A stretch of 35,028 nucleotides of DNA from Alistipes senegalensis (GTDB lineage: Bacteria > Bacteroidota > Bacteroidia > Bacteroidales > Rikenellaceae), in assembly GCA_023665825.1 (NCBI GenBank), contig JAMPDE010000001.1, forward strand, positions 922,598 through 957,625, read 5' to 3'. Shown here in pieces: positions 9,733-25,699 of the stretch (positions are counted from its first letter, which is position 1; each line of letters starts with the position of its first letter). A program made the translations under genes and the position numbers. Under the pieces are notes generated by a model. It ran no database searches. It was not told the DNA's origin and saw nothing but the letters and a program-made list of their open reading frames with translations.

Positions 9733-9775
9733 CTTATTTCGGAATATGGGTTTCTTCATTTTTCGGGCCACGACA

Positions 9776-11944: not shown

Positions 11945-11964
11945 CGGATTTCGTGATTATTGTT

Positions 11965-11972
11965 TAACTTTG
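11965..11972 (+). promoter_or_regulatory. Bacteroidetes -7 promoter element for the rsmE operon
   Basis: TAACTTTG matches the Bacteroidetes -7 consensus TAnnTTTG and lies 32 bp before the rsmE ATG, within the 60-bp gap between divergent genes. A clear -33 TTTG is not present. On the opposite strand TATCTTTA (11980-11987) is a weaker candidate for the M3 peptidase pair. Confidence 0.6.
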
Positions 11973-12004
11973 CGGGCTATAAAGATAAAGAATTTAATCC
12001 GGCC

Positions 12005-12778
12005 ATGCAACTCTTTTACGCGCCCGGCTTGGTGCCGCCCGAACACACGCTCGACGAAGAAGAATCGAAGCACTGCGTGCGGGTACTGCGTCTGGACGCC
12101 GGCGACACGGTGAACGTGACCGACGGTCGGGGCAATCTGTACCGGTGCGAGCTGGTCGAGGCCCATCCGAAGCGCTGCCGCCTGCGGGTGGTCAACTGCC
12201 GGCCGGAGTACGAAAAACCCGCCTACCGGCTGACAATGGCCGTCGCGCCGACCAAGAACGCCGACCGCTTCGAGTGGTTTCTCGAAAAGGCGACCGAAGT
12301 GGGCGTCAGTGCAATCGTGCCGCTCGAAACCGAGCACAGCGAACGGCGCAATTTCAAGGCCGAACGGGGCGAACGGGTCATCACGGCCGCGATGAAACAG
12401 TCGCTCAAAGCCTATCGGCCCGAACTGCATCCGCTGACCGCGTTTCGCGAGGCGGTGGAACGGCCGTTCGACGGCCGCCGGTTCATCGCCCACTGCGACG
12501 TAGCCCGCACGGCAGCGGGGAAAGCCTATTTGGCGCAGACGCTGCACGCGGGCGAAGATGCGGAGGTCTTCATCGGGCCCGAAGGGGATTTTTCGCCGGA
12601 GGAGATCGACTTCGCGCTGGCGCACGGATTCGAGGAAATCACGCTGGGCCCGCAACGGCTGCGCACCGAAACGGCGGCGGTCGCAGCGACGGTCATGGCG
12701 GCCGTCGTCAATGAAACGAATTGCCAAACGGAGGCTGACCGCAAGGTACGGAGCTCCGCCAAATCAGAAAAATCATGA
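12005..12778 (+). CDS. rsmE: 16S rRNA m3U1498 methyltransferase RsmE
   Basis: SPOUT-class methyltransferase that methylates U1498 of 16S rRNA. It is 257 residues from the ATG at 12005 (MQLFYAPGL), near the usual ~245. The N-terminal PUA-like part contains EEESKHCVRVLRLDAGD. The conserved middle is LEKATEVGVSAIVPLETEHSE. The SAM-binding knot includes VFIGPEGDFSPEEIDFA and ITLGPQRLRTETAAVAAT. A slightly earlier in-frame ATG at 11960 precedes the promoter -7 element and is rejected. The C-terminus carries a polar extension after VMAAVVN. The stop overlaps the ATG of the next gene by 4 bp, tying an rRNA modification gene to the membrane complex operon. Confidence 0.94.
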   Translation: MQLFYAPGLVPPEHTLDEEESKHCVRVLRLDAGDTVNVTDGRGNLYRCELVEAHPKRCRLRVVNCRPEYEKPAYRLTMAVAPTKNADRFEWFLEKATEVGVSAIVPLETEHSERRNFKAERGERVITAAMKQSLKAYRPELHPLTAFREAVERPFDGRRFIAHCDVARTAAGKAYLAQTLHAGEDAEVFIGPEGDFSPEEIDFALAHGFEEITLGPQRLRTETAAVAATVMAAVVNETNCQTEADRKVRSSAKSEKS

Positions 12779-14757
12779 ATCATGAATTGTTAGTTCCGGC
12801 CTGCTTCGCGGCGGTGATCGCACTGATTTTCGCCGTGCCGCTGCGGGCCAAAGCGTGGGTGTCGCTCGCGCTGACCGGCATCGGAGTCGTCTGTGCTTCG
12901 GCGAAAGCAGTCGGCGTGCTCGCGACGGGACGCACCGCCCGACTGTGGAGCTTCGACAGCCCGCTGTTCGGACACGACACCGGCTCGATGGACGGGCTAT
13001 CGGCGTTGCTCGTGCTGGTCATCGCCGTCGGCTCGGTCGCCGCGACGCTCTATTCGCGCGGCTACTTGGCCCACCACCTCGCGACCAAATCGCCCGTCCA
13101 CACGGCGCTGCACTACGCCTCGCTGACGCTGATGTCGCTGGCCATGCTGGCGGTGGTCTGCTCCGACGGCGGATTCTCGTTCCTCTTTTTCTGGGAGTTG
13201 ATGACCGTCGCGTCGTTCCTCTTGATTCTGTTCGACGCCGAACGTCCCGAAGTGCGCCGCGCGGCACTCTCCTACCTTATCATGATGCACGTGGGATTCG
13301 TGCTGCTCATCGTCGGGTTCGCACGGTTGCACGCCGTCTGCGGTTCGGCCTCGTTCGCCGGCCTGCCCGCCTACTTCGCCGCGCAGCCTGCACTGCCGCT
13401 TTTCTTGGTCTTTTTGGTCGGGTTCGGCATGAAAGCGGGTCTGTTCCCGCTCCACGTCTGGCTGCCCGAAGCACACCCCGCCGCCCCGTCGCACGTGTCG
13501 GCGCTGATGTCGGGCGTGATGATCAAAACGGGCGTCTACGGCATCCTGCGCATCACGGCGGCCGTTCCCGAACCGCAGCTCCGAACCGTCGGGTACATCC
13601 TGCTGGGGCTCGGCATCGTGACCGGTCTGTGGGGCGTCGTGCTGGCCGCGTCGCAGAACGACGTGAAACGCCTGCTGGCCTATTCGTCGATCGAGAACAT
13701 CGGCATCATCCTGCTCGGCACGGGCATCGCCGCGCTGGGCAAGGCCGCCGCGAATCCGGCCGTCGCGCTGTGCGGCATCGCCGGAGCCCTGCTCCACACG
13801 GTCAACCACTCGTTCTTCAAGTCGCTGCTTTTCTTCGGCGCGGGGAACATCCTTTCGCAGACGCACACCACCTCGCTCAACGCGCTGGGCGGACTGGGGC
13901 GCCACCTGCCCGTCACGGGACTGCTCTTTTTGGTCGGTACGGTCGCTATCTGCGCCCTGCCACCGCTCAACGGGTTCGTTTCGGAGCTCCTGATTTATTC
14001 CGGCATGCTCAACGGCATCGCCGGCGACCGCCACGTGCTCGCGATGGCCGGAGCCCTCGCGGCGCTGGCCCTCATCGGCGGCATCGCGGTGCTGGCATTC
14101 ACCAAACTCTACGGCACGGTCTTTCTCGGTTCGCCGCGCACGCACGTCGTCGCCGAAGCCGAAGAGGTCGACGGCCTCCGCATCGGCGCGATGGCCCTGC
14201 CGCTGACGGGCATTTTAGCAGTGGGATTGTTCCCGCAATACGCCGTGCAGGTCATCGTCCGCGCAGCGGCCTTTTTCGGGGCAGGTTCCGACGCTCTTGC
14301 GGCCTTGCCGTCCGTATGTACCGCCCTGTGCCGCACGGTGTGGATTCTGACGGCCGTTATCGGCGGCCTCGTCTGGCTGCGCAGCCGGTTGTTGCGCCGC
14401 CACACCGTCGTGCAGGGGCCGACGTGGGGCTGCGGATTCACCTCGCCCAACGTGCGGATGCAATACACGGGCGAATCGTTCGCCGAAGGGCTGCAATCGA
14501 TCGCCCGGCCGCTGACGCACGACCGCTGCGACGGAGCGCCGGTCGGCGCGGGCGAAATTATCCCGAAAGCCCACAACTACGACGTCCGCCACCGCGACCG
14601 CATCGGGACGCTCTTCGCCGCATGGTGGGTCGAAGCCCTGCGCATGCTCAACGGCCGCGTGATGCGTCTGCGTACGGGCAAGATCAACCACTACGTGCTC
14701 TTCGCGCTGGCCTTTCTGGCAGCGGTATTCGTACTGTCGGTTCTCGATTTGCTTTAA
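12775..14757 (+). CDS. hyfB: HyfB/HycC-like antiporter subunit of an Ehr-type complex
   Basis: Large membrane subunit (660 residues, about 16 helices) of the Mrp/NuoL-type antiporter family. It resembles hydrogenase-4 subunit B, including the long soluble C-terminal loop (TWGCGFTSPNVRMQYTGESF). The residues thought to form the proton path in relatives are kept: E141 in FFWELMT, K220 in GFGMKAGLFPLHVWLPEAHP, and K349 in NHSFFKSLLFF. This subunit would translocate protons or sodium ions; which ion is not visible. The ATG overlaps rsmE by 4 bp, and hyfC starts 5 bp after its stop. It belongs to a six-gene set whose soluble subunits lack hydrogenase metal ligands, so the name reflects homology and not hydrogen metabolism. 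Confidence 0.88.
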   Translation: MNHELLVPACFAAVIALIFAVPLRAKAWVSLALTGIGVVCASAKAVGVLATGRTARLWSFDSPLFGHDTGSMDGLSALLVLVIAVGSVAATLYSRGYLAHHLATKSPVHTALHYASLTLMSLAMLAVVCSDGGFSFLFFWELMTVASFLLILFDAERPEVRRAALSYLIMMHVGFVLLIVGFARLHAVCGSASFAGLPAYFAAQPALPLFLVFLVGFGMKAGLFPLHVWLPEAHPAAPSHVSALMSGVMIKTGVYGILRITAAVPEPQLRTVGYILLGLGIVTGLWGVVLAASQNDVKRLLAYSSIENIGIILLGTGIAALGKAAANPAVALCGIAGALLHTVNHSFFKSLLFFGAGNILSQTHTTSLNALGGLGRHLPVTGLLFLVGTVAICALPPLNGFVSELLIYSGMLNGIAGDRHVLAMAGALAALALIGGIAVLAFTKLYGTVFLGSPRTHVVAEAEEVDGLRIGAMALPLTGILAVGLFPQYAVQVIVRAAAFFGAGSDALAALPSVCTALCRTVWILTAVIGGLVWLRSRLLRRHTVVQGPTWGCGFTSPNVRMQYTGESFAEGLQSIARPLTHDRCDGAPVGAGEIIPKAHNYDVRHRDRIGTLFAAWWVEALRMLNGRVMRLRTGKINHYVLFALAFLAAVFVLSVLDLL

Positions 14758-14762
14758 CTGCT

Positions 14763-15671
14763 ATGAAAATACTCGATATTTCACTCCTGCTGGCCGTTGC
14801 AGTCGCCGTTCCGGGTGTCATCAACCGCACCCGCGCGCTGCTCGCCGGACGCAAAGGCACCCGCTTCCTGCAACACCTCTACGACGTACGGCTGCTGCTG
14901 CGCAAGGGCGCGGTCTATTCCACGACCGTCTCGACGCTGTTCCGCGTCACGCCGTCGGTCTATCTCGGCGCGGCGTTCGTCGCCCTGCTGTTCGTGCCGG
15001 TGGGCGACCTGCCGCCCGTGCTGGCGTTCGACGGCGACCTCGTGGCGTTCGCCTACACGCTGGCACTGGGACGTTTCGCCCTGATTCTGGCCGCGATGGA
15101 TACCGGCAGCCCGTTCGAGGGCATGGGCGCGAGCCGCGAAGCCCTCTACGGTGCACTGGTCGAACCCGCGCTGATGCTCGTCATGGGGACGCTCGCCCTG
15201 CTGACGGGCTGCACCTCGTTCGCCGAGCTGTTCGCTGCCGAAAGCACGAGCGGCTATCCGATCGTCCTGCTGCTGCTCGCCTACGTCCTCGTAAAAATAG
15301 GCTTCACCGAGAGCGGGCGCGTGCCGGTCGACGACCCCCGCACCCACTTGGAACTGACGATGATCCACGAGGTGATGTGCCTCGACTACTGCGGCGTCGA
15401 CATGGCGTTCATCAAGGCGGGCGGCTGGTGCAAGACCGCCGCGTTCGCCGTGCTCGCCGCCGATGCCGTCGCCGCCGTGTGCTGCCCGCACTGGTGGTTC
15501 GCCGCACCGCTCGCCGTCGTGCTGACGGGATGCTCGGTCGGCGTGGTCGAATCGACGCAGGCCCGCAACAAACTCGTCCGCAACACCACCTTCATACTCA
15601 CCATCGCAGCGCTGGCCGCGCTCGTATTCTTCACGGCCTACCTGCTGCAACTCCACATCGTATTAGGATGA
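14763..15671 (+). CDS. hyfC: HyfC/NuoH-like membrane subunit of an Ehr-type complex
   Basis: 302-residue membrane protein of the NuoH/HycD family, which connects the soluble redox arm to the membrane arm. The family segment MDTGSPFEGMGASREA is intact, with E119 within it. The downstream charged segment GFTESGRVPVDDPRTHLELTMIHE also matches relatives closely; it is the loop that contacts the small and large soluble subunits. About eight transmembrane helices are apparent. The stop overlaps the start of the next gene by 4 bp. Conservation of this interface loop argues that the complex is assembled and under selection, even though the metal sites in the soluble subunits are gone. Confidence 0.88.
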   Translation: MKILDISLLLAVAVAVPGVINRTRALLAGRKGTRFLQHLYDVRLLLRKGAVYSTTVSTLFRVTPSVYLGAAFVALLFVPVGDLPPVLAFDGDLVAFAYTLALGRFALILAAMDTGSPFEGMGASREALYGALVEPALMLVMGTLALLTGCTSFAELFAAESTSGYPIVLLLLAYVLVKIGFTESGRVPVDDPRTHLELTMIHEVMCLDYCGVDMAFIKAGGWCKTAAFAVLAADAVAAVCCPHWWFAAPLAVVLTGCSVGVVESTQARNKLVRNTTFILTIAALAALVFFTAYLLQLHIVLG

Positions 15672-16297
15672 TACTCGCACCGATTCTACTCTACGTCGTG
15701 ACGCTGGTCTACCTCGCCATCACCGAGCGGTACCGCAACTTCGCCGCCATCATGCGCGCGCAGGGGTTCCTGCTTTTCGCCATCGCCCTGCTGCAACTGC
15801 ACGCCATTCACCCTACCGAACTGGCGTTCATCGCGCTGGAAACGCTGGTCTTCAAGGCACTGCTCATTCCCGCCATTCTGTTCGCCATTATCCGGCGCAC
15901 GAAAATCAACCGCGTGCGCACATCGGGCTCGTCGCAGTTCGGCGCGCTCGTGCTGTCGCTCACGGCACTGGTCGTCAGCGCGTCGCTCACCTACTACATC
16001 GCCGACCGCACCGTCGACTTGGTCTTCTTCGGCGTCGCACTGTACGCGTTGTTGAGCGGACTGACGCTGATCGTGCTCCGCTCGCGGCTGTTCTCGCATC
16101 TGGTCGGATTTCTCGTCATCGAGAACGGCGTGTTCCTCTTTTCGATGGCGATCGGCGTCGAGATGCCATGGGTCATCAACATCGCCATCCTGCTCGATAT
16201 TCTGATGTCCGTACTGATGATGAGCATCTTTTTCCGCCGCATCGACGACCGCATCCATGCCGACGATGCCGACGCCCTGACGCACGTAAAAGACTGA
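15668..16297 (+). CDS. hyfE: HyfE-like membrane subunit of an Ehr-type complex
   Basis: 209-residue, highly hydrophobic protein with about six or seven helices, matching hydrogenase-4 subunit E (a NuoK-like core with extra N-terminal helices). The recognisable segments are TELAFIALETLVFKALLIPAIL and HLVGFLVIENGVFLFSMAIG; the buried glutamate in VIENG corresponds to the NuoK-type proton-path acid. The C-terminus is short and acidic (RIHADDADAL). The ATG overlaps hyfC by 4 bp, and the next gene starts 4 bp after its stop. Assignment rests on these segments and on gene order. Confidence 0.82.
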   Translation: MILAPILLYVVTLVYLAITERYRNFAAIMRAQGFLLFAIALLQLHAIHPTELAFIALETLVFKALLIPAILFAIIRRTKINRVRTSGSSQFGALVLSLTALVVSASLTYYIADRTVDLVFFGVALYALLSGLTLIVLRSRLFSHLVGFLVIENGVFLFSMAIGVEMPWVINIAILLDILMSVLMMSIFFRRIDDRIHADDADALTHVKD

Positions 16298-16301
16298 CGC
16301 C

Positions 16302-17702
16302 ATGACACTCTACTTCCTTTTCAGCATACTCGTCGCCGCAGGCGCGTTTCTGGCGCGCAACGACCGGCACCTGTTCTTCGCCGGGCTCGCGTTCTACGCC
16401 GTGCAAATCGGATTCGCCGTGCAGCTGCTCGCGGGCGGGCTCTACGGCACGACTTCGCGCGCCTTTTTCACGTTCGACGCCGCCGGCTCGCTTTTTTACC
16501 TGTTGCTGACCCTCGTGTCAGCTTTCGCCTACTTCCACTCGGAAGCCTACCTCAAAGGCAGCGACATCCGCCAGACGCGCACCTACTCGGCACTGGTGAT
16601 GCTGCTCACCGCCGCTATCGCAGGGGTCTACTTCTCGAACAACCTCGCCGTGACGTGGATTCTGCTCGAAGCGACCAGCCTTTGCACGGCGGGCATCGTC
16701 TACCACCGCCGCACCAAACAGACGCTCGAAGCGGCATGGAAATACCTGTTCGTCTGCTCGACGGGCATCGCCGTCGCCTATTTGGGCATTCTGCTGCTGT
16801 GCGCCGCGACCCGTTGCGAGTCGCTCTCGCACGAAGCCGTTGCCGCGACGGTCGCGACGGCCAATCCGCTCTATCTGAAAATCGCATTCTTACTGATACT
16901 TTGCGGGTACAGCTGCAAAGCCGAGATTTTTCCGCTTTACACCGTCGGCGTCGACGCCAATTTCGCCGCGCCGTCGCCCGGTTCGGCGCTGATTTCGACG
17001 GGGCTGGTCAACGCCGGATTCTTGGCCCTGTTCCGCATCTACAAGCTGCTGGCCGCGTCGGAGGTCTTCGGGTGGGTGCAGCACGTGCTGCTGCTCACGG
17101 GCGTGCTGTCGCTCGTCATCGGAGCGTTGTTCCTGCGCCGCACGAACAACTACAAACGTTTCCTCTCCTACTCGACGGTCGAAAACATGGGCATCGCCGC
17201 CATCGGGCTGGGTATCGGCGGCATCGGCGTGTGGGCGGCACTGTTCCACGTCGTCTTCCACACCTTGATTAAAAGCAGTTTGTTCCTGCAAATGGCCGTC
17301 GTGCGGCAGGTCTACAACGGCTACCGTATCAACCGCATCGGCGACTACATCCGCATCAACCGCATCGGAGCCGTCGGGCTGCTGGCGGGCATGGTGGTGC
17401 TCATCGCATTCCCGCCCTCGCCGTTGTTCGTGTCGGAGCTGTTGATACTGCGCGAAGCGGCCGCCGACGGTGCATGGTGGCTCGTCGCGGCGATGGTGCT
17501 GCTGGTCTGCATCGTCATCTACTCGTTCTGCTCGCGCATGATCCGCCTCTGCTACCAACCCAACCAAGACGAACTGCATCCCTCAAAAGCCGACCGCGCC
17601 CTTTCGTGGTCGGCACTCGTGCTGCTCGTGCTCGCCATGATCGCGGGTCTGTGGCAGCCCGAACCGCTCGTCGAACTTTTGCACGAAATAGCCGAACTAT
17701 GA
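16302..17702 (+). CDS. hyfF: HyfF-like second antiporter subunit of an Ehr-type complex
   Basis: 466-residue membrane protein of the NuoL/M/N antiporter family, corresponding to HyfF. Putative proton-path residues remain: E123 in WILLEATSLC and K206 in GYSCKAEIFPLYTVGVDANF; the segment VFHTLIKSSLFLQ provides a further lysine. The loop after K206 ends APSPGSALIS, as in HyfF-type subunits. Having two antiporter-like subunits implies more than one ion channel per complex. The stop overlaps the ATG of the large soluble subunit by 4 bp. No HyfD homologue is present between neighbours, so the membrane arm is smaller than that of E. coli hydrogenase-4. Confidence 0.86.
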   Translation: MTLYFLFSILVAAGAFLARNDRHLFFAGLAFYAVQIGFAVQLLAGGLYGTTSRAFFTFDAAGSLFYLLLTLVSAFAYFHSEAYLKGSDIRQTRTYSALVMLLTAAIAGVYFSNNLAVTWILLEATSLCTAGIVYHRRTKQTLEAAWKYLFVCSTGIAVAYLGILLLCAATRCESLSHEAVAATVATANPLYLKIAFLLILCGYSCKAEIFPLYTVGVDANFAAPSPGSALISTGLVNAGFLALFRIYKLLAASEVFGWVQHVLLLTGVLSLVIGALFLRRTNNYKRFLSYSTVENMGIAAIGLGIGGIGVWAALFHVVFHTLIKSSLFLQMAVVRQVYNGYRINRIGDYIRINRIGAVGLLAGMVVLIAFPPSPLFVSELLILREAAADGAWWLVAAMVLLVCIVIYSFCSRMIRLCYQPNQDELHPSKADRALSWSALVLLVLAMIAGLWQPEPLVELLHEIAEL

Positions 17703-19231
17703 TACGCTATTACATTACCGACAACACGGCGGCGGCCGTTCCGCTCGGCGACATCCCCGAAGTGGCCTATGCGGAGTTCTACGACGACCTCTGCGCGAAA
17801 CTCGCCGAGCCGCGCTATCACTTGGCGCACTACTTCGCCCTGCCCGAAGAGGGACGCATGCGCTTCTACGCGCTGCTGCTGGACGACGAGGCCTCGCAGG
17901 TGCTCGTCACCTCGTTCGCGACCGGCTACTACGACGACACGGCGCTGCCCTCGCTCACGGCGCGCCACCCGCAGGTGCATCCGTTCGAGCGCGACATCGC
18001 CGAACGCTACGGCATCCGCTTCGACGGGATGCCTTGGCCCAAGCCGCTGCGATTCCCGTTCGACCGCTACGACCGCGCGAGCTCGATGGACAACTACCCG
18101 TTCTACACGATGGAGGGCGGCTCGCTCCACGAAGTCAACGTCGGGCCTATCCATGCGGGCATCATCGAGCCCGGAGCGTTCCGCTTCATTTGCAACGGCG
18201 AGCAGGTGCTGCACCTCGAAATCGCGCTGGGCTACCAGCATCGGGGTGTCGAACACGCCTTCGAGACGATCGCCAACCGCCTGCGCCAATGCTGTCTGGC
18301 CGAAACGGTCGCCGGCGACAGTGCGGTAGCCCATGCGACGGCGTTCGCCGAAGCCGTCGAGAAACTCACCGGCCACGAACGCCCCGCCCAGCTCGACCGC
18401 GAACGCGCCGTAGCACTGGAACTCGAACGCATGGCGATGCACATCGCCGACACGGGCGCCTTGTGCGGCGACGTGAGCTACCAGCTGGGGCAGGTGGCCT
18501 GCGAAGCCCTGCGCACGATGACGATCAACACCACGCAGGCATGGTGCGGCAACCGCTTCGGCAAGGGACTGATCCGTCCGCACGGCACCAACCACCCGTT
18601 GGACGCGGCGACGGCGGAAATGATTCGGCATAACGTGAAAGAAATCGCCCGCCGCTACAACGAAGTGCGGCAGGACATCAAATCGTCGCCGACGCTGCTG
18701 GCGCGGTTCGAGCAATGCGGCATCGTGACGCGCGAACAGATGGCCGCTATCGGCGGCGTGGGGCAGGCGGCTCGTGCGAGCGGACTGGCCCGCGACCTGC
18801 GCGCGACGCATGCGTGGGGAGCCTATGCCAAGCACATTCGGCACGAACCGTTCGTCAAGACGCAGGGCGACGTCATGGCGCGCCTGATGATGCGCTGCCG
18901 CGAGGTGCTGCAATCGGCCGAATACATCGACCGGCTGCTGGAAATCTACGAACGGAAATACGCCGATGCACCCAATCCCTGCACCGCCCCCGACTACACG
19001 GCACCGCTGGCACCGTCGTCGCTCGCGTTCGGGCTGGTCGAGGGGTGGCGCGGCGAAACGTGCCACGTGCTTGTAACCGATGTGGCGGGCCGGCTCGCCG
19101 CCTGCCGCGTCAAAGACCCGAGCCTCCACAACTGGACGGCGCTGGCACTGGCCCTGCGCGGCGAGGGAATCTCCGACTTCCCGATCTGCAACAAAAGTTT
19201 CAATCTCTCCTACTGCGGACACGACCTATGA
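17699..19231 (+). CDS. hyfG: HyfG/HycE-like large subunit lacking NiFe ligands
   Basis: 510-residue soluble protein: an N-terminal NuoC-like domain (about 1-120) fused to a NuoD/hydrogenase large-subunit domain, the usual HycE/HyfG layout. The body aligns well (AGIIEPGAFRFICNGEQVLH, LEIALGYQHRGVEHAFE). The first NiFe motif, CGxC followed by AH in hydrogenases, reads V204-AGDS-AVAH, so both cysteines are replaced (A205, S208). The second motif (DPCxxC) reads SFNLSYCGHDL at the extreme C-terminus; both ligands are replaced (S504, G507), although a cysteine sits one place off (C506). No tail remains to be cleaved by a maturation protease. It cannot hold a classical NiFe site. A CC pair (C198-C199) lies just before the old first motif. 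Its reaction is unknown. Confidence 0.9.
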   Translation: MIRYYITDNTAAAVPLGDIPEVAYAEFYDDLCAKLAEPRYHLAHYFALPEEGRMRFYALLLDDEASQVLVTSFATGYYDDTALPSLTARHPQVHPFERDIAERYGIRFDGMPWPKPLRFPFDRYDRASSMDNYPFYTMEGGSLHEVNVGPIHAGIIEPGAFRFICNGEQVLHLEIALGYQHRGVEHAFETIANRLRQCCLAETVAGDSAVAHATAFAEAVEKLTGHERPAQLDRERAVALELERMAMHIADTGALCGDVSYQLGQVACEALRTMTINTTQAWCGNRFGKGLIRPHGTNHPLDAATAEMIRHNVKEIARRYNEVRQDIKSSPTLLARFEQCGIVTREQMAAIGGVGQAARASGLARDLRATHAWGAYAKHIRHEPFVKTQGDVMARLMMRCREVLQSAEYIDRLLEIYERKYADAPNPCTAPDYTAPLAPSSLAFGLVEGWRGETCHVLVTDVAGRLAACRVKDPSLHNWTALALALRGEGISDFPICNKSFNLSYCGHDL

Positions 19232-19992
19232 TACTTCCCAAAATAAAAGTCCTGCACAGTCACGGCCGGCAGGCGATTCCCGACCTCGATGCCGTGACGC
19301 TGACCGAGCGGTTTCGGGGCCGCCCCGAACTGACCGAAACGTCCGACACGGCCGACCTCGAAGCGGCCGCCGCGCTCTGTCCGACGGGTGCGCTCGCGGC
19401 AAAACCCTTCGCACTCGATCTCGGACGCTGCCTTTTCTGCGGCGAATGCGCCCTGCGCGCACCCCGCAACATCCGCTTCACCAACGACTACCGCATCGGT
19501 TCGCCGACGCGCGAGGGGCTCGTCCTACGACCCGGCATGACCGCCGTGCCGTTCGGCCGCACGGCCGTGCGGCCGGAACTGGCCCGCTGCTTCGGCCAGT
19601 CACTCCATCTGCGCGAAGTCTCGGCGGGCGGCGACGCGTCGGTCGAAATGGAGCTGGGCGCGACGGGCAACGTCAATTTCGACTTCGGACGGTTCGGTGT
19701 CGGATTCACCGCCTCACCGCGCCATGCCGACGGCGTGGTCGTATCGGGCCCCGTGACGGCCAACATGGCCGAAGCCCTGCGCATCTGCTACGATGCCGTA
19801 GCAGAACCCAAACTGCTGGTGGCCTGCGGCACGGAAGCCTGCTCGGGCGGACTGTTCGCCGAAAGCAAGGCCGTCGACCGCACGTTTTTTGCAACGCACC
19901 GGGTCGACCTCTGGCTGCCGGGCGCGCCGACCCACCCGATGGTCTTCATCGACGGCATCCGCACGCTGCTGGGGAAAAAGAATCGAATCTGA
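19228..19992 (+). CDS. Ferredoxin-HyfI/NuoB fusion lacking proximal cluster ligands
   Basis: 254 residues joining what are normally two proteins. Residues 1-85 are a reduced HyfH/HycF-like ferredoxin: C51 (CPTGA) plus C68, C71 and C74 (CLFCGEC) form exactly one [4Fe-4S] site; the other cluster is gone. Residues 105-250 are a NuoB/HycG-like small subunit (FGVGFTASPRHADGVVVSGPVT is diagnostic). Aligned with HycG-type proteins, the four proximal-cluster cysteines are D136, V139, E203 and A233 (SAGGDASVE, ACGTEACSGG, LPGAPTHP). C200 and C205 flank the third position. The electron wire from ferredoxin domain to large subunit is therefore broken as judged by known geometry. The start overlaps hyfG by 4 bp; the chromate transporter gene follows after 8 bp. 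Confidence 0.88.
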   Translation: MILPKIKVLHSHGRQAIPDLDAVTLTERFRGRPELTETSDTADLEAAAALCPTGALAAKPFALDLGRCLFCGECALRAPRNIRFTNDYRIGSPTREGLVLRPGMTAVPFGRTAVRPELARCFGQSLHLREVSAGGDASVEMELGATGNVNFDFGRFGVGFTASPRHADGVVVSGPVTANMAEALRICYDAVAEPKLLVACGTEACSGGLFAESKAVDRTFFATHRVDLWLPGAPTHPMVFIDGIRTLLGKKNRI

Positions 19993-20000
19993 AACGACGC

Positions 20001-20546
20001 ATGCGACAACTGCTCACACTCTTTTGGAGTTTTTTTAAGATCGGGCTGTTCACTTTCGGCGGTGGGTACGCGATGATTCCGCTGATCCGGCGCGAAGTCA
20101 TAGACCGGCGCGGCTGGATCGCCGAACCGGAGTTCCTCGACCTGCTGACGCTGGCGCAATCGGCACCCGGCCCCATTTCGCTCAACACGTCGGTCTTCGT
20201 GGGCTACAAGATGCGCGGGTATGCCGGTGCCGTAGCCGCGATTCTGGGCGTCGTCGTGCCGTCGTTCGTCATCATCCTGCTGATAGCCCTGCTGTTCGCC
20301 GACATCCGCACCAATCCGGTGGTCGACGCCGCATTCAAGGGGATGCGGCCGGCCGTCGTGGCACTCATCATCGTGCCGGTCATCTCGCTGGCCAAAGGGA
20401 TGCACCCCGCGATGTATGCCGTCATCGCGCTGACAGCCGTCGCAGTCTGGCATTTGGGCTGGTCGCCCGTATGGATACTGGCCGGAGCGGCCGCCGCAGG
20501 GATTCTGCACGCGCTGTACCGATTGAGAAAGGAGGGCCGCCGATGA
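20001..20546 (+). CDS. Chromate transporter family protein, half-size, first of pair
   Basis: 181-residue membrane protein that is a single CHR domain. The family signature is at the N-terminus (FFKIGLFTFGGGYAMIPLIR), followed by LAQSAPGPISLNTSVFVGY. Long ChrA proteins carry two such domains; here they are split into two genes, a recognised short-chain arrangement in which the two partners act together. The family exports chromate by antiport in a few tested cases; in gut anaerobes the true substrate is unknown. It starts 8 bp after the complex's last gene and overlaps its partner by 4 bp, so it belongs to the same operon. Confidence 0.9.
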   Translation: MRQLLTLFWSFFKIGLFTFGGGYAMIPLIRREVIDRRGWIAEPEFLDLLTLAQSAPGPISLNTSVFVGYKMRGYAGAVAAILGVVVPSFVIILLIALLFADIRTNPVVDAAFKGMRPAVVALIIVPVISLAKGMHPAMYAVIALTAVAVWHLGWSPVWILAGAAAAGILHALYRLRKEGRR

Positions 20547-21115
20547 TACTGCTGCAACTATTCTTCAGCTACCTGAAAATCGGATTTTTCGGATTCGGCG
20601 GCGGCTATGCGATGCTGTCGCTTATCCAGAACGAGGTGGTCATGCAGCACGGCTGGATGACCAATGCCGAATTCGCCGACATCGTGGCCGTATCGCAAAT
20701 CACGCCGGGCCCCATCGCCATCAATTCGGCGACCTACGTGGGCTATACGGTGGGGATGCACGCCGGCGGCACGTGGATGGGCATTCTCGGCGCGCTCACG
20801 GCGACTTTCGCCGTCTGTCTGCCTGCGCTGACGCTGATGCTGTTGATTACGCGCTTCTTCCTGAAATTAAGGAACAACCCTATCGTCGAAGGGGCGATGC
20901 AAGGCATGCGGCCGGTAGTCATCGGCATGATTGCGTCGGCAGCACTGCTGCTGATGTTCCCGCACGGCAGCGACCCGAGCGAACGGAACTTCATCGACAC
21001 ATGGAGCTGGGTGCTATTCGGCGGCGTGTTCGTCGGTTCGTGGCGCAAGGTCAACCCCATTGCGCTTATCGTGCTCTCCGCCGCAGCGGGAATCGCGATT
21101 TACTATATCTTCTAA
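20543..21115 (+). CDS. Chromate transporter family protein, half-size, second of pair
   Basis: 190-residue partner of the preceding protein, with the same signature (YLKIGFFGFGGGYAMLSLI) and the PGP motif in SQITPGPIAINSATYVGY. About six helices are visible. The ATG overlaps the stop of the first half by 4 bp. It closes the plus-strand operon that starts at rsmE; its stop overlaps by a few bases the end of a convergent minus-strand gene, and no intrinsic terminator is visible between them. Confidence 0.9.
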   Translation: MILLQLFFSYLKIGFFGFGGGYAMLSLIQNEVVMQHGWMTNAEFADIVAVSQITPGPIAINSATYVGYTVGMHAGGTWMGILGALTATFAVCLPALTLMLLITRFFLKLRNNPIVEGAMQGMRPVVIGMIASAALLLMFPHGSDPSERNFIDTWSWVLFGGVFVGSWRKVNPIALIVLSAAAGIAIYYIF

Positions 21116-21393
21116 ACTGCGGCGAGTGCCGCCACAATCGCCGCTATCAGGAAAATCGCCAGAAAGAGAAATCCCAGCACGGCGAACAACATGCCGAAAC
21201 ACCCCCACCGCCGATCGGCCGAAGGCAGCGGGTCGCTCAACAAAACGACGATCAATCCGACCAGCGGAGTGAAAATCAAGCTGATGACGAAAGGCCATCC
21301 GAAACCGATCCGGCGACGGCTTCCGATGATACCCACCAGCACCGACAGGAAGCAACCGCTCAACAGTCCGAAAATCAAAACAAGAAGTGCCAT
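21112..21393 (-). CDS. Small hydrophobic membrane protein of unknown function
   Basis: 93 residues, with two pairs of hydrophobic segments separated by a charged loop (SDPLPSADRRWGCFG). The first hydrophobic segment ends in a basic stretch (GSRRRIGFGW). No family recognised. It starts 18 bp after the stop of the methyltransferase gene in the same direction, so it could be the second gene of a two-gene unit. The long hydrophobic reading with proper start and charge distribution supports a real gene, but its shortness and the GC-rich context leave some doubt. Confidence 0.65.
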   Translation of the reverse strand: MALLVLIFGLLSGCFLSVLVGIIGSRRRIGFGWPFVISLIFTPLVGLIVVLLSDPLPSADRRWGCFGMLFAVLGFLFLAIFLIAAIVAALAAV

Positions 21394-21401
21394 ATATCCA
21401 C

Positions 21402-21417
21402 AGATAATCGATTATCT
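21402..21417. other. 16-bp perfect palindrome across a stop codon
   Basis: AGATAATCGATTATCT is its own reverse complement and spans the methyltransferase stop codon, in front of the small membrane protein start. It is AT-rich inside GC-rich surroundings. It could be an operator for the small gene or chance; no second copy was noticed. Confidence 0.4.
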
Positions 21418-22311
21418 CGCAAACCGGTAGTAGGTTCCCAGCGGCAGCTCCTTGCCGCCGAGATCGGTGAAGCAAAGCTCGCCCCACTGCTCCTCGCGCG
21501 GGACACCGAACGCCTGCCGCACGGCCGTACGGGCCAGCGTCGACGACAACCCCATCGAATAGAGGTTCAGCACGAGAAAGGCTCCCGCAGGTTCGAGCAA
21601 CTGCGCGCAACAGTCGAGCATCTCGCCGATGTTCTCCTCCAAAATCCACTTTTCGCCGTTCGCGCCGCGCCCGTAGGCAGGCGGGTCGAGGATGATGCCC
21701 GCATAGCGGTTGCCGCGTCGCACCTCGCGCCGCACAAACTTCAACGCATCCTCGACCATCCAGCGCACGCCGTCCAAGCCGCTCGCCTCCATGTTCTCGC
21801 GCGCCCACGTAACGACCTGCTTCACCGAATCGACATGCGTCACTTCGGCACCGGCCGCCCGCGCAGCCAGCGTAGCGCCGCCCGTATAGGCGAAAAGATT
21901 CAGCACTTTCGGCGCGCCGGTCGCGGGCATGCCGTTCTCGCCCGCCCCCAGTCGCAAACAGCAATCATGAATGAAATTCCAGTTGGCCGCCTGCTCGGGG
22001 AAGATGCCCACGTGCTTGAACGACGTCAACGCCAGCCGCATGCGCAGGTGCATGCCGCGATAACGGTATTCGACCGTCCAGCGGTCGGGCATCTGCGGAC
22101 GCAGCCGCCATTCGCCCCGTTCGTCGCTGCGGACGTCGCGCACGAACGACGCATCGGCCCGCTGCCACTCCGCTTCGGAGAGCGTCGGCCGCCAGATAGC
22201 CTGCGGCTCGGGCCGCCGTGTCACGTAGGCACCGAAACGTTCCAGTTTTTCAAAATTACCCGAATCGATCAGCTCGTAATCGTCGAATCGGGGCGTCAGT
22301 TGTTGCTGCAT
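21412..22311 (-). CDS. Class I SAM-dependent methyltransferase (RlmI/RlmK-like)
   Basis: 299 residues. A Rossmann-type SAM domain is clear: motif I VLNLFAYTGGATLAARAAGA, an acidic loop VTHVDSVKQVV, and the catalytic-site motif IILDPPAYGRG. This set matches the COG1092 group of rRNA cytosine/guanine methyltransferases (RlmI, RlmK C-domain). The N-terminal part (about 1-100) lacks an obvious PUA domain, so the exact target RNA is unclear. The start at 22311 (MQQQLTPRF) is preferred over an in-frame ATG at 22344, because the minus-strand -7 element at 22342-22349 overlaps that codon and would start transcription downstream of it. Confidence 0.86.
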   Translation of the reverse strand: MQQQLTPRFDDYELIDSGNFEKLERFGAYVTRRPEPQAIWRPTLSEAEWQRADASFVRDVRSDERGEWRLRPQMPDRWTVEYRYRGMHLRMRLALTSFKHVGIFPEQAANWNFIHDCCLRLGAGENGMPATGAPKVLNLFAYTGGATLAARAAGAEVTHVDSVKQVVTWARENMEASGLDGVRWMVEDALKFVRREVRRGNRYAGIILDPPAYGRGANGEKWILEENIGEMLDCCAQLLEPAGAFLVLNLYSMGLSSTLARTAVRQAFGVPREEQWGELCFTDLGGKELPLGTYYRFAR

Positions 22312-22341
22312 GGCGGAAGAAAGTAGGTTGTTCGGAGGGTT

Positions 22342-22349
22342 CAAAGTTA
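22342..22349 (-). promoter_or_regulatory. Bacteroidetes -7 promoter element for the methyltransferase
   Basis: On the minus strand this reads TAACTTTG, an exact TAnnTTTG match, about 30 bp before the chosen methyltransferase start. It also decides between two candidate start codons. Confidence 0.6.
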
Positions 22350-22414
22350 CGCATTTTTATCCGTCGCCGCGTCATTTTTCCGCCGGAAACCGATGCGATC
22401 CGATTTTATATCGC

Positions 22415-22422
22415 TACCTTTG
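22415..22422 (+). promoter_or_regulatory. Bacteroidetes -7 promoter element for the MATE gene
   Basis: TACCTTTG matches TAnnTTTG exactly. Transcription would start near 22429, leaving an untranslated leader of about 120 nt before the MATE start codon, which is long for this region. Confidence 0.6.
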
Positions 22423-22428
22423 CAGCGC

Positions 22429-22527
22429 GGATACGAAAAAGTTTTGTAATCCTCATCGGAGGGCCTCGTCCTATCGGGCCGGATAAGATGACTGGGTAAA
22501 ACCATGCTCCTTATCCGCCCGATTTTT
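22429..22527 (+). promoter_or_regulatory. Structured leader, candidate riboswitch/attenuator
   Basis: The leader can form a terminator: 22475-22487 (CGGGCCGGATAAG) pairs with 22510-22521 (CTTATCCGCCCG) in 12 bp with one bulged C, followed by ATTTTT at 22522-22527. Its 5' arm lies inside an alternative fold: GTTTTG (22441-22446) can close with TAAAAC (22497-22502), TCATC (22453-22457) with GATGA (22487-22491), or CCTC with GAGG across 22451-22462. Mutually exclusive pairing before a transporter gene is the hallmark of a transcription-controlling riboswitch. It does not match the conserved cores of TPP, FMN, cobalamin, purine, fluoride or SAM classes as I know them. The mepA/guanidine-IV motif is a named class found upstream of MATE genes and deserves comparison. 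Confidence 0.55.
22475..22527 (+). terminator. Intrinsic terminator inside the MATE leader
   Basis: A 12-bp GC-rich stem with one bulge, a 22-nt loop and a run of five T after the stem, located 24 bp before the MATE start codon and on the coding strand. Because it lies between promoter and gene, it is more likely a conditional attenuator than an end of transcription of an upstream gene; the upstream gene is on the other strand. Confidence 0.7.
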
Positions 22528-22550
22528 CATTTCAAAACGTTACGCGTACC

Positions 22551-23936
22551 ATGCAAAGAGATGCAATCGATTTCGGTCGAGCGAAAGTTTCGACCCTCTT
22601 TCGGAAAATGTTCGTCCCCACGCTGCTGGGAATGCTCTCCATTTCGGCCGTCACGGCTGTCGACGGCATCTTCGTCGGTCACGGCGTAGGCAGCGACGGC
22701 ATCGCCGCCATCAACATCTGCGTTCCCGTGCTGATGATCTTCGCGGGATTCGGGCTGATGATGGGCGCCGGATGCTCGGTCGTCGCCTCCGTTCATCTGG
22801 CTCGCGGCAACACCAAAGCGGCCCGGCTCAATGCGACCCAATCGCTGTTGTTCGCCACGTTCGTCACGGCACTCTGTTCGGCCGTCGTTCTGCTGTTTCC
22901 CGAACGCACGGCCCGGCTGCTCGGCTCGTCCGAAACGCTGCTGCCGCTGGTGAAAAGCTATTTCTACGGATTCGTGCCCGGATTGACTTTCGAGATATGG
23001 AGCGCCATCGGACTGTTCGTCATCCGGCTCGACGGGGCACCCCGACTCGCCATGTGGTGCAACGTCGTCGCGGCTCTCGCCAACGTCGGCCTCGACTGGC
23101 TTTTCATCTTTCCGCTCGGCATGGGCGTCGCGGGGGCGGCCATCGCATCGACCCTCAGCATGGCGATCGGAGCCGTCATCGCACTGGTCTACCTCTTCCG
23201 GTACGCCGAGCGGCTCAAACCCTATTGGCCCAAACTATCCCGCAAAAGCCTGCGGCTCTCGCTGCGCAACGTCGGTTACCAATGCCGCATCGGCTCGTCG
23301 GCATTGTTGGGCGAAACGACGATGGCCGTCCTGATGTTCGTCGGCAATCTGGTCTTCATGCCCTATCTGGGCGACTACGGCGTAGGGGCGTTCGGCGTGG
23401 CCTGTTACTACGCCCCGTTCGTCTTCATGGTCGGCAACGCCATCGCCCAATCGGCCCAACCGATCATCAGCTACAATTTCGAGGGTACGCCGCAACGAGC
23501 GCTCACGGCCCAGCGGATCGCGCTTCTGACAGCGCTCGGATGCGGTTCGGCCGTGACCGCCGCTTTTCTGTGGGGAAGCGAGGGGCTGGTGGCGCTCTTT
23601 CTCTCGCCGGCCGATCCGGCTGCCGCCATCGCAGTCGAGGGAATGCCCCGTTTCGCACTCGGATTCATCCCGTTCGTGCTCAATCTGACCGCCATAGGTT
23701 ATTATCAAAGCATCGAACGGGTACGGCATGCCACCGGTTACGCCTTGTTGCGCGGAGCGGTATTTCTCGTACCGAGTTTCCTGCTGCTCCCTCGTTGGGC
23801 GGGAAATGCCGGCATCTGGCTCGCCATGCCGCTCTCCGAAATGCTGACCTTGCTCGTTATCGTCGCGGTTTATCTTTTCCGGCCGCAATCGACCAGCGAC
23901 ATTTCGCACCGCACGCAATCGAAGTCGAGCCGGTAG
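22551..23936 (+). CDS. MATE-family multidrug/metabolite efflux transporter
   Basis: 461-residue integral membrane protein with about twelve helices in two repeated halves. The first half starts STLFRKMFVPTLLGMLSISAVTAVDGIFVGHGVG, the typical MATE opening; the second-half counterpart is RNVGYQCRIGSSALLGETTM. Later AQSAQPIISYNFEG is a strong family segment. Sodium- or proton-driven export of a cationic compound is the family role; substrate unknown. The gene has its own promoter and a structured leader, so the substrate is probably also sensed by the leader. Its 3' end overlaps the convergent U32 gene by 67 bp. Confidence 0.92.
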   Translation: MQRDAIDFGRAKVSTLFRKMFVPTLLGMLSISAVTAVDGIFVGHGVGSDGIAAINICVPVLMIFAGFGLMMGAGCSVVASVHLARGNTKAARLNATQSLLFATFVTALCSAVVLLFPERTARLLGSSETLLPLVKSYFYGFVPGLTFEIWSAIGLFVIRLDGAPRLAMWCNVVAALANVGLDWLFIFPLGMGVAGAAIASTLSMAIGAVIALVYLFRYAERLKPYWPKLSRKSLRLSLRNVGYQCRIGSSALLGETTMAVLMFVGNLVFMPYLGDYGVGAFGVACYYAPFVFMVGNAIAQSAQPIISYNFEGTPQRALTAQRIALLTALGCGSAVTAAFLWGSEGLVALFLSPADPAAAIAVEGMPRFALGFIPFVLNLTAIGYYQSIERVRHATGYALLRGAVFLVPSFLLLPRWAGNAGIWLAMPLSEMLTLLVIVAVYLFRPQSTSDISHRTQSKSSR

Positions 23937-25699
23937 CGGAATGCGCCGTGCTCCAAGTACAGTTCGCCGCGAAGCGTCGGATGCTCTTTCAGACACTGGC
24001 CCAACTCGCGCCGGAGGCAGTAGGCCGACCGCATGACGCAACAGCCCGCCGTCGTCGGAGCGAACTCCAACGGCGCGGCGATTTCGCGCACGCCGTGTTC
24101 GCGGTAGAATGCTTCGGCTAAACGGTTGGTGACGTTTTCATCCGCTCCCATGCGCTCCGACGGATAACGGGCCGCCGGATTCTCAGGCAGGATGCGGTGC
24201 GGCAAAGGCTGCGCGAGACGTGCCTGCAACAGTTTATCGAGTGCTTCGCGGCGCAGTTCGGCGACGGTCGAGGCCGGCACGAACCACTCCGCACCGGTGA
24301 CCGCGACCTCGCGCACGGCGAAAACCGTATCGCCGCTGCGGGCCGCCTGCGTGCGGATGGTCACCGCATTGGCTTCGGCGTTGCGGGCCGGTTCGAGCGG
24401 CATCGTCCGTTCGGCGCAGGCCGCCACTCCCTCGCAATCGGTGCAGGCGAAGCGCAAACCAGCGGGCGAAACCGTTATCTCTGCCGTTGCCGGAATGACC
24501 CGCCGCGTGCGGCTGCGTTCAAGCACTTTATTGAACCTCAAATCGAAATTCCGATAGACCGCTGCCCCGACCGCGATGCCCTCCATGCGGTTTGGCCGGA
24601 CGATGCCGCCCTCGACGGCATTGACATTCGTTCCGAACGTACCGGCATCCGAGACGAAACAGATGCCGTCGCCCGCAGCGAGCGATGCGCCCGTCGGCAA
24701 AACCCCGTCGAGCCGGAATCCGTCGCGCAAGAGCTGCGCCACACGCCCCAACGGCTCGCCTACCGCTTTGGGCGTATCGAACGAAGCGACGCCCGCCCGC
24801 CGACCGTCGATAAACCACGTCGATTCGCCGCGCGTGAAACTTTTGGCGGGGTCGGGCGTGAAGTCGGGCACGCTCTCGCCCACCGACGCCCGCCACAGAT
24901 GCGGCCGCACGGCCAACGCCTCGTCGACCGCACGGCGGTAGTAAGCGACCACGTTCTTGATGTAGCCCGTATCTTTGAGCCGCCCCTCGATTTTGAACGA
25001 GGTAACACCCGCGTCGAGCAGGTCGCCGATGCGGGCCGAAAGGTTCAGGTCGCGCACCGACAGCAGGTGTTTGCCGGCGATGTAGCGGCGGCCGTGCCCG
25101 TCGGTCAAGTCCCACGTCTGACGACAGGGTTGGCTGCATGCGCCGCGATTGCCGCTGCGGGGCGACATCGACCGCGAGAGGAAGCACCGCCCGCTATAAC
25201 CGACGCAGATAGCCCCGTGCACGAAACACTCGACTTCGGCCGCCGTTGCGGCGCAGACGGCCCGTATCTCCTCCAACGACAACGCCCGTTCGAGAATGAC
25301 CCGAGCGAAGCCCGCTTCGACCAGAAAACGCGCCCTTTCGGGCGAGTGGTTGAACATCTGGGTCGAAGCGTGCAGCTCGACCGGCAGATTCATCCGCCGC
25401 AGGGCCATGTCCTGCACGATAAGCGCGTCGACACCGGCCGAAATCAACTCACGGGCCTGCGCTTCGGCATCGGCCAATTCATCGTCGAGCAGCAAGGTGT
25501 TGAGCGTGGCATGTACCCGCACCCCGTAACGGTGGGCGTAGTCGACGACGCGGGCGATTTCGTCGGCCGAATTTCCGGCCGCCTGCCGCGCACCGAAACG
25601 CGCACCGCCGATGTAGACGGCATCGGCCCCGTAATCGACGGCGGCGACAGCGGAAACGTAATCCCGCGCAGGAGCGAGCAATTCGACCGATTTTTTCAT
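23870..25699 (-). CDS. U32-family protein, probable RNA hydroxylase (RlhA/TrhP-like)
   Basis: 609 residues starting at MKKSVELLAPARD, the usual N-terminus of the family; a longer in-frame reading to 25768 adds a segment with no family character. The U32 signature is present (ECFVHGAICVGYSGRCFLS), followed by NRGACSQPCRQTWDL; these four cysteines hold a [4Fe-4S] cluster in characterised relatives. The extra C-terminal region (DUF3656-like) and total length are nearer to E. coli RlhA (YdcP, ~650 residues, 23S rRNA C2501 hydroxylation) than to TrhP (YegQ, ~450, tRNA hydroxylation). The old name collagenase-like peptidase is not well supported for this family. It is divergent from serS. Confidence 0.88.
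   Translation of the reverse strand: MKKSVELLAPARDYVSAVAAVDYGADAVYIGGARFGARQAAGNSADEIARVVDYAHRYGVRVHATLNTLLLDDELADAEAQARELISAGVDALIVQDMALRRMNLPVELHASTQMFNHSPERARFLVEAGFARVILERALSLEEIRAVCAATAAEVECFVHGAICVGYSGRCFLSRSMSPRSGNRGACSQPCRQTWDLTDGHGRRYIAGKHLLSVRDLNLSARIGDLLDAGVTSFKIEGRLKDTGYIKNVVAYYRRAVDEALAVRPHLWRASVGESVPDFTPDPAKSFTRGESTWFIDGRRAGVASFDTPKAVGEPLGRVAQLLRDGFRLDGVLPTGASLAAGDGICFVSDAGTFGTNVNAVEGGIVRPNRMEGIAVGAAVYRNFDLRFNKVLERSRTRRVIPATAEITVSPAGLRFACTDCEGVAACAERTMPLEPARNAEANAVTIRTQAARSGDTVFAVREVAVTGAEWFVPASTVAELRREALDKLLQARLAQPLPHRILPENPAARYPSERMGADENVTNRLAEAFYREHGVREIAAPLEFAPTTAGCCVMRSAYCLRRELGQCLKEHPTLRGELYLEHGAFRYRLDFDCVRCEMSLVDCGRKR

Follow-up and report, generated by a model that had tools for sequence, protein, structure and literature searches.

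Conserved acids in place of the proximal-cluster cysteines in an Ehr-type complex of Bacteroidales

A ferredoxin–HyfI fusion encoded in Alistipes senegalensis has none of the four cysteines that would hold the proximal [4Fe-4S] cluster. Is this small subunit a decaying remnant, or does it belong to a conserved family, and what could its complex do without the cluster? We addressed these questions for the window, the whole 35,028-nucleotide stretch of contig JAMPDE010000001.1 that was analyzed. The fusion ends a six-gene operon on the + strand (order B-C-E-F-G-I, 12775–19992), in which neighboring genes overlap by 4 bases or are separated by gaps of 4–5 bases. The features are as follows.

12775..14757, +: HyfB-like antiporter-like membrane subunit, 660 aa (PF00361, 2e-54; hydrogenase 4 subunit B model, 1.1e-150, under the curated cut-off)
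14763..15671, +: HyfC/NuoH-like membrane subunit, 302 aa (PF00146, 5e-22 in the same frame; start ATG 14763; conserved charges)
15668..16297, +: HyfE-like membrane subunit, 209 aa (hydrogenase 4 membrane subunit model, 3e-13, under the cut-off; ATG 15668)
16302..17702, +: HyfF-like second antiporter-like subunit, 466 aa (PF00361, 4.6e-39; HyfF models)
17699..19231, +: HyfG-like large subunit, NuoC and NuoD fused, 510 aa, without NiFe ligands
19228..19992, +: ferredoxin–HyfI fusion without the proximal cluster, 254 aa
19378..19449, +: the four ferredoxin cysteine codons C51, C68, C71, and C74, one [4Fe-4S] site
19633..19644, +: codons 136–139 (D-A-S-V), the first two cluster cysteine sites; D136 and S138 near-invariant, 139 freely variable
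19834..19836, +: codon 203 (E), third ligand position; D or E in 169 of 170 distinct cluster-less sequences
19924..19926, +: codon 233 (A), fourth ligand position; N, A, T, or D across the cluster-less family

The operon and its cofactor sites

The gene set resembles that of the Ehr complexes, with group-4-hydrogenase-like subunits B, C, E, F, G, and I, no Ni-Fe ligands, and antiporter-like HyfB and HyfF (PF00361). Ehr complexes are described as being without Ni-Fe ligands and are suspected to couple ion translocation to redox reactions (PMC6349859). Most Ehr relatives read in our phylum sample, and all nine read on proteobacterial plasmids, keep the proximal ligands, whereas the clade of the window is without them. 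Both soluble subunits found their best structural matches in formate hydrogenlyase/hydrogenase 4 (HycG and HycE, 7z0s). The formate hydrogenlyase relay consists of the NiFe site, the proximal cluster G1, and the two-cluster HycF, as given in PMC9474812; the complex of the window, in contrast, has neither NiFe nor G1, and its one ferredoxin cluster site is fused to HyfI. With respiratory complex I (NuoB/NuoI/NuoCD) it shares the small-subunit fold and the NuoH-like and antiporter-like membrane subunits, but it has no N2 ligands, no NADH module in the operon, and only two antiporter-like subunits. The antiporter-like subunits of Mrp cation/proton antiporters work without redox cofactors, and Mrp is not known to have large or small hydrogenase-type subunits. 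The present complex is like Mrp in its antiporter-like subunits, from which antiport is predicted, and unlike Mrp in that the operon keeps HyfG and HyfI, both under purifying selection.

The preliminary description of this locus had reported that all four proximal ligands are changed (D136, V139, E203, and A233) amid intact fold signatures. The sequence check confirmed the substitutions, and the predicted fold of the small subunit is intact. Neither the N2 ligands of NuoB nor the proximal ligands of group 4 hydrogenases are present in this subunit. Among 170 distinct cluster-less sequences, position 136 was acidic throughout (D 167, E 3), and position 203 was acidic with one exception (D 121, E 48, A 1). 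Position 233 was N in 116, A in 44, T in 8, and D in 2. Cysteine remained at position 139 in 90 of the 170, the rest having V, I, A, T, G, N, or S; D-C-D-N was the commonest ligand-site pattern (86/170).

Changes at these sites were counted by parsimony on a FastTree tree of 168 fused cluster-less sequences. Acid/non-acid changes numbered zero at position 136 and one at 203, N/other changes two at 233, and C/other changes 17 at 139. In terms of exact residues, positions 136 and 138 changed twice each, 203 eight times, and 139 32 times, with a median of 19 over 247 columns. Constraint thus lies on the carboxylate pair and not on the remaining cysteine, which is evidence against a hidden cluster. 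Judged from these sequences, the conserved element of the cluster-less small subunits is the acid pair, not a cluster. A metal could be bound in the D-C-D-N forms, C139 remaining in 90 of 170.

The fused ferredoxin part had been described as cut to one cluster, with C51, C68, C71, and C74 kept, and this holds for the family. All four are cysteines in 168/168 distinct cluster-less sequences holding the ferredoxin part, with no change on the parsimony tree. Cysteines of the first motif were found at the three expected positions in none of 185 cluster-less rows (187 rows, of which two were unreadable); a cysteine just after C74, near the fourth first-motif position, is still there in 37 of the 185. 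Two or three first-motif cysteines are present in 16 of the 19 cluster-bearing rows, and the other three have none. Ferredoxin trimming does accompany the loss of the proximal cluster. The three rows with none (L115, L116, and L117) show an intermediate-looking state, in which the proximal ligands are intact and the ferredoxin is already down to one cluster site.

The large subunit aligns to HycE and MbhL with its NiFe cysteines replaced, and the CxxC...CxxC Ni-Fe ligands of group 4 [NiFe] hydrogenases are absent from it. The loss of NiFe and that of the proximal cluster had been taken as coordinated, which was not borne out, as the cluster-bearing relatives are already without NiFe ligands. 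The replacement motifs E-x-x-x-G-D and N-K-S-F-x-L-S-Y hardly differ between the 13 cluster-bearing and the 71 cluster-less operons compared, the window being among the latter. This indicates that the NiFe loss is older than the proximal-cluster loss. As read from these motifs, the loss of the NiFe ligands preceded that of the first ferredoxin cluster and of the proximal cluster.

Distribution and origin of the cluster loss

We read 211 rows, including the window, of which 194 were distinct. They came from four samples: 61 relatives, the best 80 of 574 confirmed matches in named genomes, 395 phylum genomes, and 393 order genomes. The duplicates L002, L027, L112, and L147 were dropped before the counts, as were the loci L001 and L129–L141, whose genes are mostly the same as those of counted rows. 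The distinct sequences comprised 170 cluster-less ones, 19 with all four cysteines (CCCC), and 5 that were NuoB or fragments. The best 80 of the 574 named loci are the nearest to the query and so are biased to its type; the closest named relative among them, from a MAG labelled Alistipes senegalensis, shows 84% identity, and the named relatives put the source genome close to Alistipes (Rikenellaceae).

In the Bacteroidales sample, the better-scoring places were read (E up to about 1e-28, plus G784). The 86 places consisted of 81 cluster-less, four CCCC (L156, L213, L223, and L225), and one NuoB. G000, G041, G054, G058, and G059 were taken from the first 61 relatives, and G298 and weaker places, many in the ordinary NuoB range, are outside this count. 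The preliminary description had wondered whether any described Ehr complex shares the loss; 81 of the 85 Ehr places read in the Bacteroidales sample do. In the phylum sample, 15 of 16 rows read were CCCC, and L113, from outside the order, was D-C-D-N. All nine proteobacterial small subunits read keep CCCC. Among the best 80 of 574 named loci, D-C-D-N also occurred in five labelled Flavobacteriaceae, Flavobacteriales, or Lutibacter (L081, L085, L091, L094, and L100), although such labels on MAGs can be in error. Those of these five and L113 that were put on the tree lie nested among Bacteroidales sequences. They reflect either horizontal transfer or wrong MAG labels. Loss of the proximal cluster is typical of Bacteroidales and not confined to them.

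A careful tree of 53 rows was built with the ligand columns removed, in addition to a quick tree of 84 rows. The 53-row tree needs two changes between cluster-bearing and cluster-less states. On it, the fused cluster-less rows fall together in one clade (99/93), to which L114 (CCCC) is sister (94/82). The quick tree gave the same fused cluster-less clade (SH-aLRT 91); a smaller tree of the NuoB domain only did not resolve the branching between L114 and the cluster-less groups.

The second cluster-less lineage consists of L142, a stand-alone HyfI of 175 aa whose ligand-site pattern is D-C-D-D, C having again become D at both 136 and 203. It groups with seven stand-alone CCCC subunits of proteobacterial plasmids (95/85). 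The NuoB-domain tree held eight proteobacterial small subunits, all CCCC, and the ninth CCCC subunit was read outside it. The contig of L142 (L248, G048:C386:1-8370) carries a complete six-gene operon in the order I-B-C-E-F-G. No ferredoxin gene was found in this operon, its large subunit is without NiFe ligands, and no Fe-S or NiFe motif was seen in it. Every redox cofactor motif is apparently missing from the L248 operon.

On the 53-row tree, the hypothesis that all cluster-less sequences share one origin was rejected (p-AU 0.00037), the grouping of L142 having been noticed beforehand on the 84-row tree. One cluster-less clade was rejected again when the proteobacterial plasmid sequences were added (p-AU 0.00049). 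The trees support two independent losses, one in a clade made up mainly of Bacteroidales and the other in L142/L248, the latter represented by one sequence from one fragmented genome, on a long branch in both the 84-row and the 53-row trees.

Some related operons differ in their makeup. The order B-C-E-F-G-I is also found in nine cluster-bearing relatives (L129–L137). A second HyfB-like gene or piece lies beside the first at the operon head in the cluster-bearing L134 and L135 and in the cluster-less L138, where it may provide a longer membrane arm. Proteobacterial plasmids of Rhizobium, Azospirillum, Methylovirgula, and Paraburkholderia (L239, L240, L243, L244, and L246) carry a B-C-E-F-G-I operon with one isolated proximal cluster site. 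No ferredoxin gene stands in or beside these operons in the listed annotation, which is incomplete; the HyfE gene is also missing from that of L243. The Variovorax plasmid L242 has a fused-type operon with intact proximal cysteines, and a second hyfB-C-E-F-G set starts about 3.4 kb downstream.

Selection, membrane subunits, and genome setting

The preliminary description held that the loss was not random decay and proposed dN/dS as the check. Nei–Gojobori values were taken from pairs with dS of 0.05–1.2, which are not independent of one another. The median for the small subunit was 0.178 (334 of 554 pairs), which indicates purifying selection. The medians were 0.187 for the large subunit (199 of 450 pairs), 0.241 for HyfC (118 of 282 pairs), and 0.233 for HyfB (91 of 165 pairs). 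Decay of the operon was rejected on these values, far below 1 in four genes. The clean reading frames and membrane subunits noted earlier were also found here, with open frames and substitutions shared across the order. These findings show that the cluster-less small subunits are a conserved family in which the change is old and shared.

Conserved charges were compared between 12–13 cluster-bearing and 60–83 cluster-less operons. At least 90% conservation in both groups was found for HyfB E141, K220, H227, K251, H341, H345, K349, and E404, for HyfF E123, K206, D218, K285, and K324, and for HyfC E183, R186, D190, D191, H195, E197, H202, and E203. HyfC carries the conserved loop E-S-G-R-V-P-V-D-D-P-R-T-H-L-E-L-T-M-I-H-E, and HyfE also keeps charged residues in both groups. 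The counterparts of these HyfB, HyfF, and HyfC residues presumably carry protons in complex I. The exceptions, fixed in the cluster-bearing group and kept by fewer than half of the cluster-less operons, are HyfB R366 and Y555, HyfC K24 (to R), HyfE K138, and HyfF H213 (to Y). Residues newly fixed in the cluster-less group include several tyrosines and cysteines, as well as H113 and H240 of HyfB. With such exceptions, both groups conserve most of the charged residues in their membrane subunits.

In the small subunit, the four ligands were the only D/E/K/R/H/C/Y positions fixed in the cluster-bearing and lost in the cluster-less group. Position 138 switches too, from G in the cluster-bearing to S in the cluster-less sequences, and R115 is newly fixed in the latter. 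In the large subunit, H160 is fixed in the cluster-bearing group and kept by fewer than half of the cluster-less operons (to A), while K289, R293, and R365 are fixed in the cluster-less group. These three basic residues could pair with the new acids of the small subunit.

The source genome (88% complete) has one PF01058 protein and two PF00361 proteins, both of the latter in the operon. A separate intact HyfI, which would have weakened the claim of loss, was not found in it, and neither a NiFe large subunit (PF00374) nor HypD gave a match. With no PF00361 protein outside the operon, no Nuo or Mrp was found in this 88% complete genome. It does have a complete rnf gene set (B-C-D-G-E-A, gene names from translations), with a PF01512 match within. 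RnfC_N was found in 36 of 37 genus genomes, with or without the complex, one match being weak (G035) and one partial (G016). Counted by domain and not by operon membership, two PF00361 proteins occur in 19 of the 37 genus genomes (own included), one in a single genome, three or five in 3, and none in 14. The function is therefore dispensable, which makes the complex accessory to energy metabolism in the genus and not essential for it.

For partner genes, the ORFs of window positions 8001–24000 were clustered with L032–L111 loci of at least 9 kb. No conserved electron-input partner was found near the operon: antisense shadow ORFs aside, the six genes alone are shared by most of the deeper loci (from L072 onward). 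RsmE and other neighbors are found mostly in Alistipes-like loci. A chromate-transporter-type gene (PF02417 in ORF 19080–20546) lies 3′ of the operon, and ORF 20471–21115 falls in the same similarity cluster; the two are probably a split two-gene transporter. The 543-aa ORF at 10286–11917 had no Pfam or NCBIfam match at 0.001 and is a member of an ORF similarity cluster common to other loci.

What the cluster-less complex may do

The balance tips slightly toward an Ehr-type complex that would exchange ions as an antiporter, with no electrons reaching the old active site and with the two conserved carboxylates replacing the cluster. Electron delivery to the core would have been given up. From the homology of its subunits, the membrane arm (two antiporter-like, one NuoH-like, and one HyfE-like subunit) would be an Mrp-like cation/proton antiporter, driven by an existing ion gradient such as that of the Rnf complex encoded in the same genome. 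The peripheral arm would serve as a cap gating the membrane arm. With less confidence, the carboxylates at 136 and 203 may substitute for the negative charge of the lost cluster atop the coupling region, this charge being fixed or set by protonation and not by electrons. The retained ferredoxin cluster, with no known redox partner within the complex, may be structural or a redox or oxygen sensor. It counts against electron-free antiport that complex-I-type membrane arms are usually driven by redox chemistry. Moreover, the strict retention of the ferredoxin cluster in the fused clade suggests that some redox or sensing event still takes place. Loss of N2 from Yarrowia complex I is reported to leave the rest of the complex intact but to abolish its quinone reductase activity (PMC8042128). 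The architecture thus tolerates an empty site, whereas quinone chemistry does not.

More tentatively, a machine of the complex-I superfamily may have become redox-free at least twice. The two carboxylates at the former N2/proximal ligand positions would then be a protonatable or fixed-charge cluster surrogate, and the membrane arm would be worked without electrons; in L248, no Fe-S or NiFe motif would be left.

Another metal or cofactor may instead have replaced the cluster, with D136, D/E203, C139, or N233 binding iron, zinc, or magnesium, so that electrons from the ferredoxin cluster still reach the core of a ferredoxin-driven pump. We regard this as unlikely. The replacements are not random, D-C-D-N being the commonest, a very similar D-C-D-D arose independently, and the ferredoxin cysteines are invariant; however, the tree counts 17 switches to or from cysteine at position 139, and A or T occupies position 233 in 52 of the 170, so that just two carboxylates are left in the window. 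The second lineage (L248) has an operon without a ferredoxin gene. Given the geometry of complex I, electrons would also probably be unable to cross the distance between the distal cluster and the core once N2 is gone.

Equally doubtful is a redox-gated antiporter, in which the single ferredoxin cluster would be a sensor: its reduction or oxidation would switch the ion machine open or shut, and electrons would go no further. That one full cluster site is kept in 168/168 while the other cluster sites are lost, with membrane subunits otherwise conserved, would fit such a sensor. The plasmid relatives L239, L240, L243, L244, and L246, as far as their incomplete annotation goes, and L248 are, however, without a ferredoxin gene at the operon, which indicates that the machine in general does not need the ferredoxin part.

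Energy-coupled non-redox catalysis, in which ion flow would drive the processing of another substrate in the former NiFe/quinone cavity, has models in DabA/DabB and the cyanobacterial CO2-uptake NDH-1. In favor of such a role, the large subunit shows high conservation, many invariant residues, and a fixed replacement motif, but the compared loci showed no conserved partner gene beyond the six of the operon, and we consider this improbable. A functionless small subunit on its way to being lost is most improbable: genus genomes without any PF00361 protein (14/37) and an in-frame stop in row L013 stand against dN/dS far below 1 in four genes, open frames, substitutions common to members across the order, and a conserved acid pair.

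Our literature search, at the level of titles and opening lines of abstracts, found no description of proximal-cluster loss in Ehr complexes, although an earlier notice in print is possible. The available part of PMC6349859 makes no mention of it.

Operons of the Ehr type in gut Bacteroidales should not be annotated as hydrogenase 4 or NADH dehydrogenase. How complex I couples N2/quinone chemistry to distant ion channels is a long-standing question. The operon of the window belongs to a natural family in which the coupling and pumping subunits are kept and the cluster is swapped for two carboxylates, and its cluster-bearing relatives, with the same six-gene operon, provide a ready-made comparison. 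This comparison can show which parts of the machine need electrons and which need only charge or conformation.
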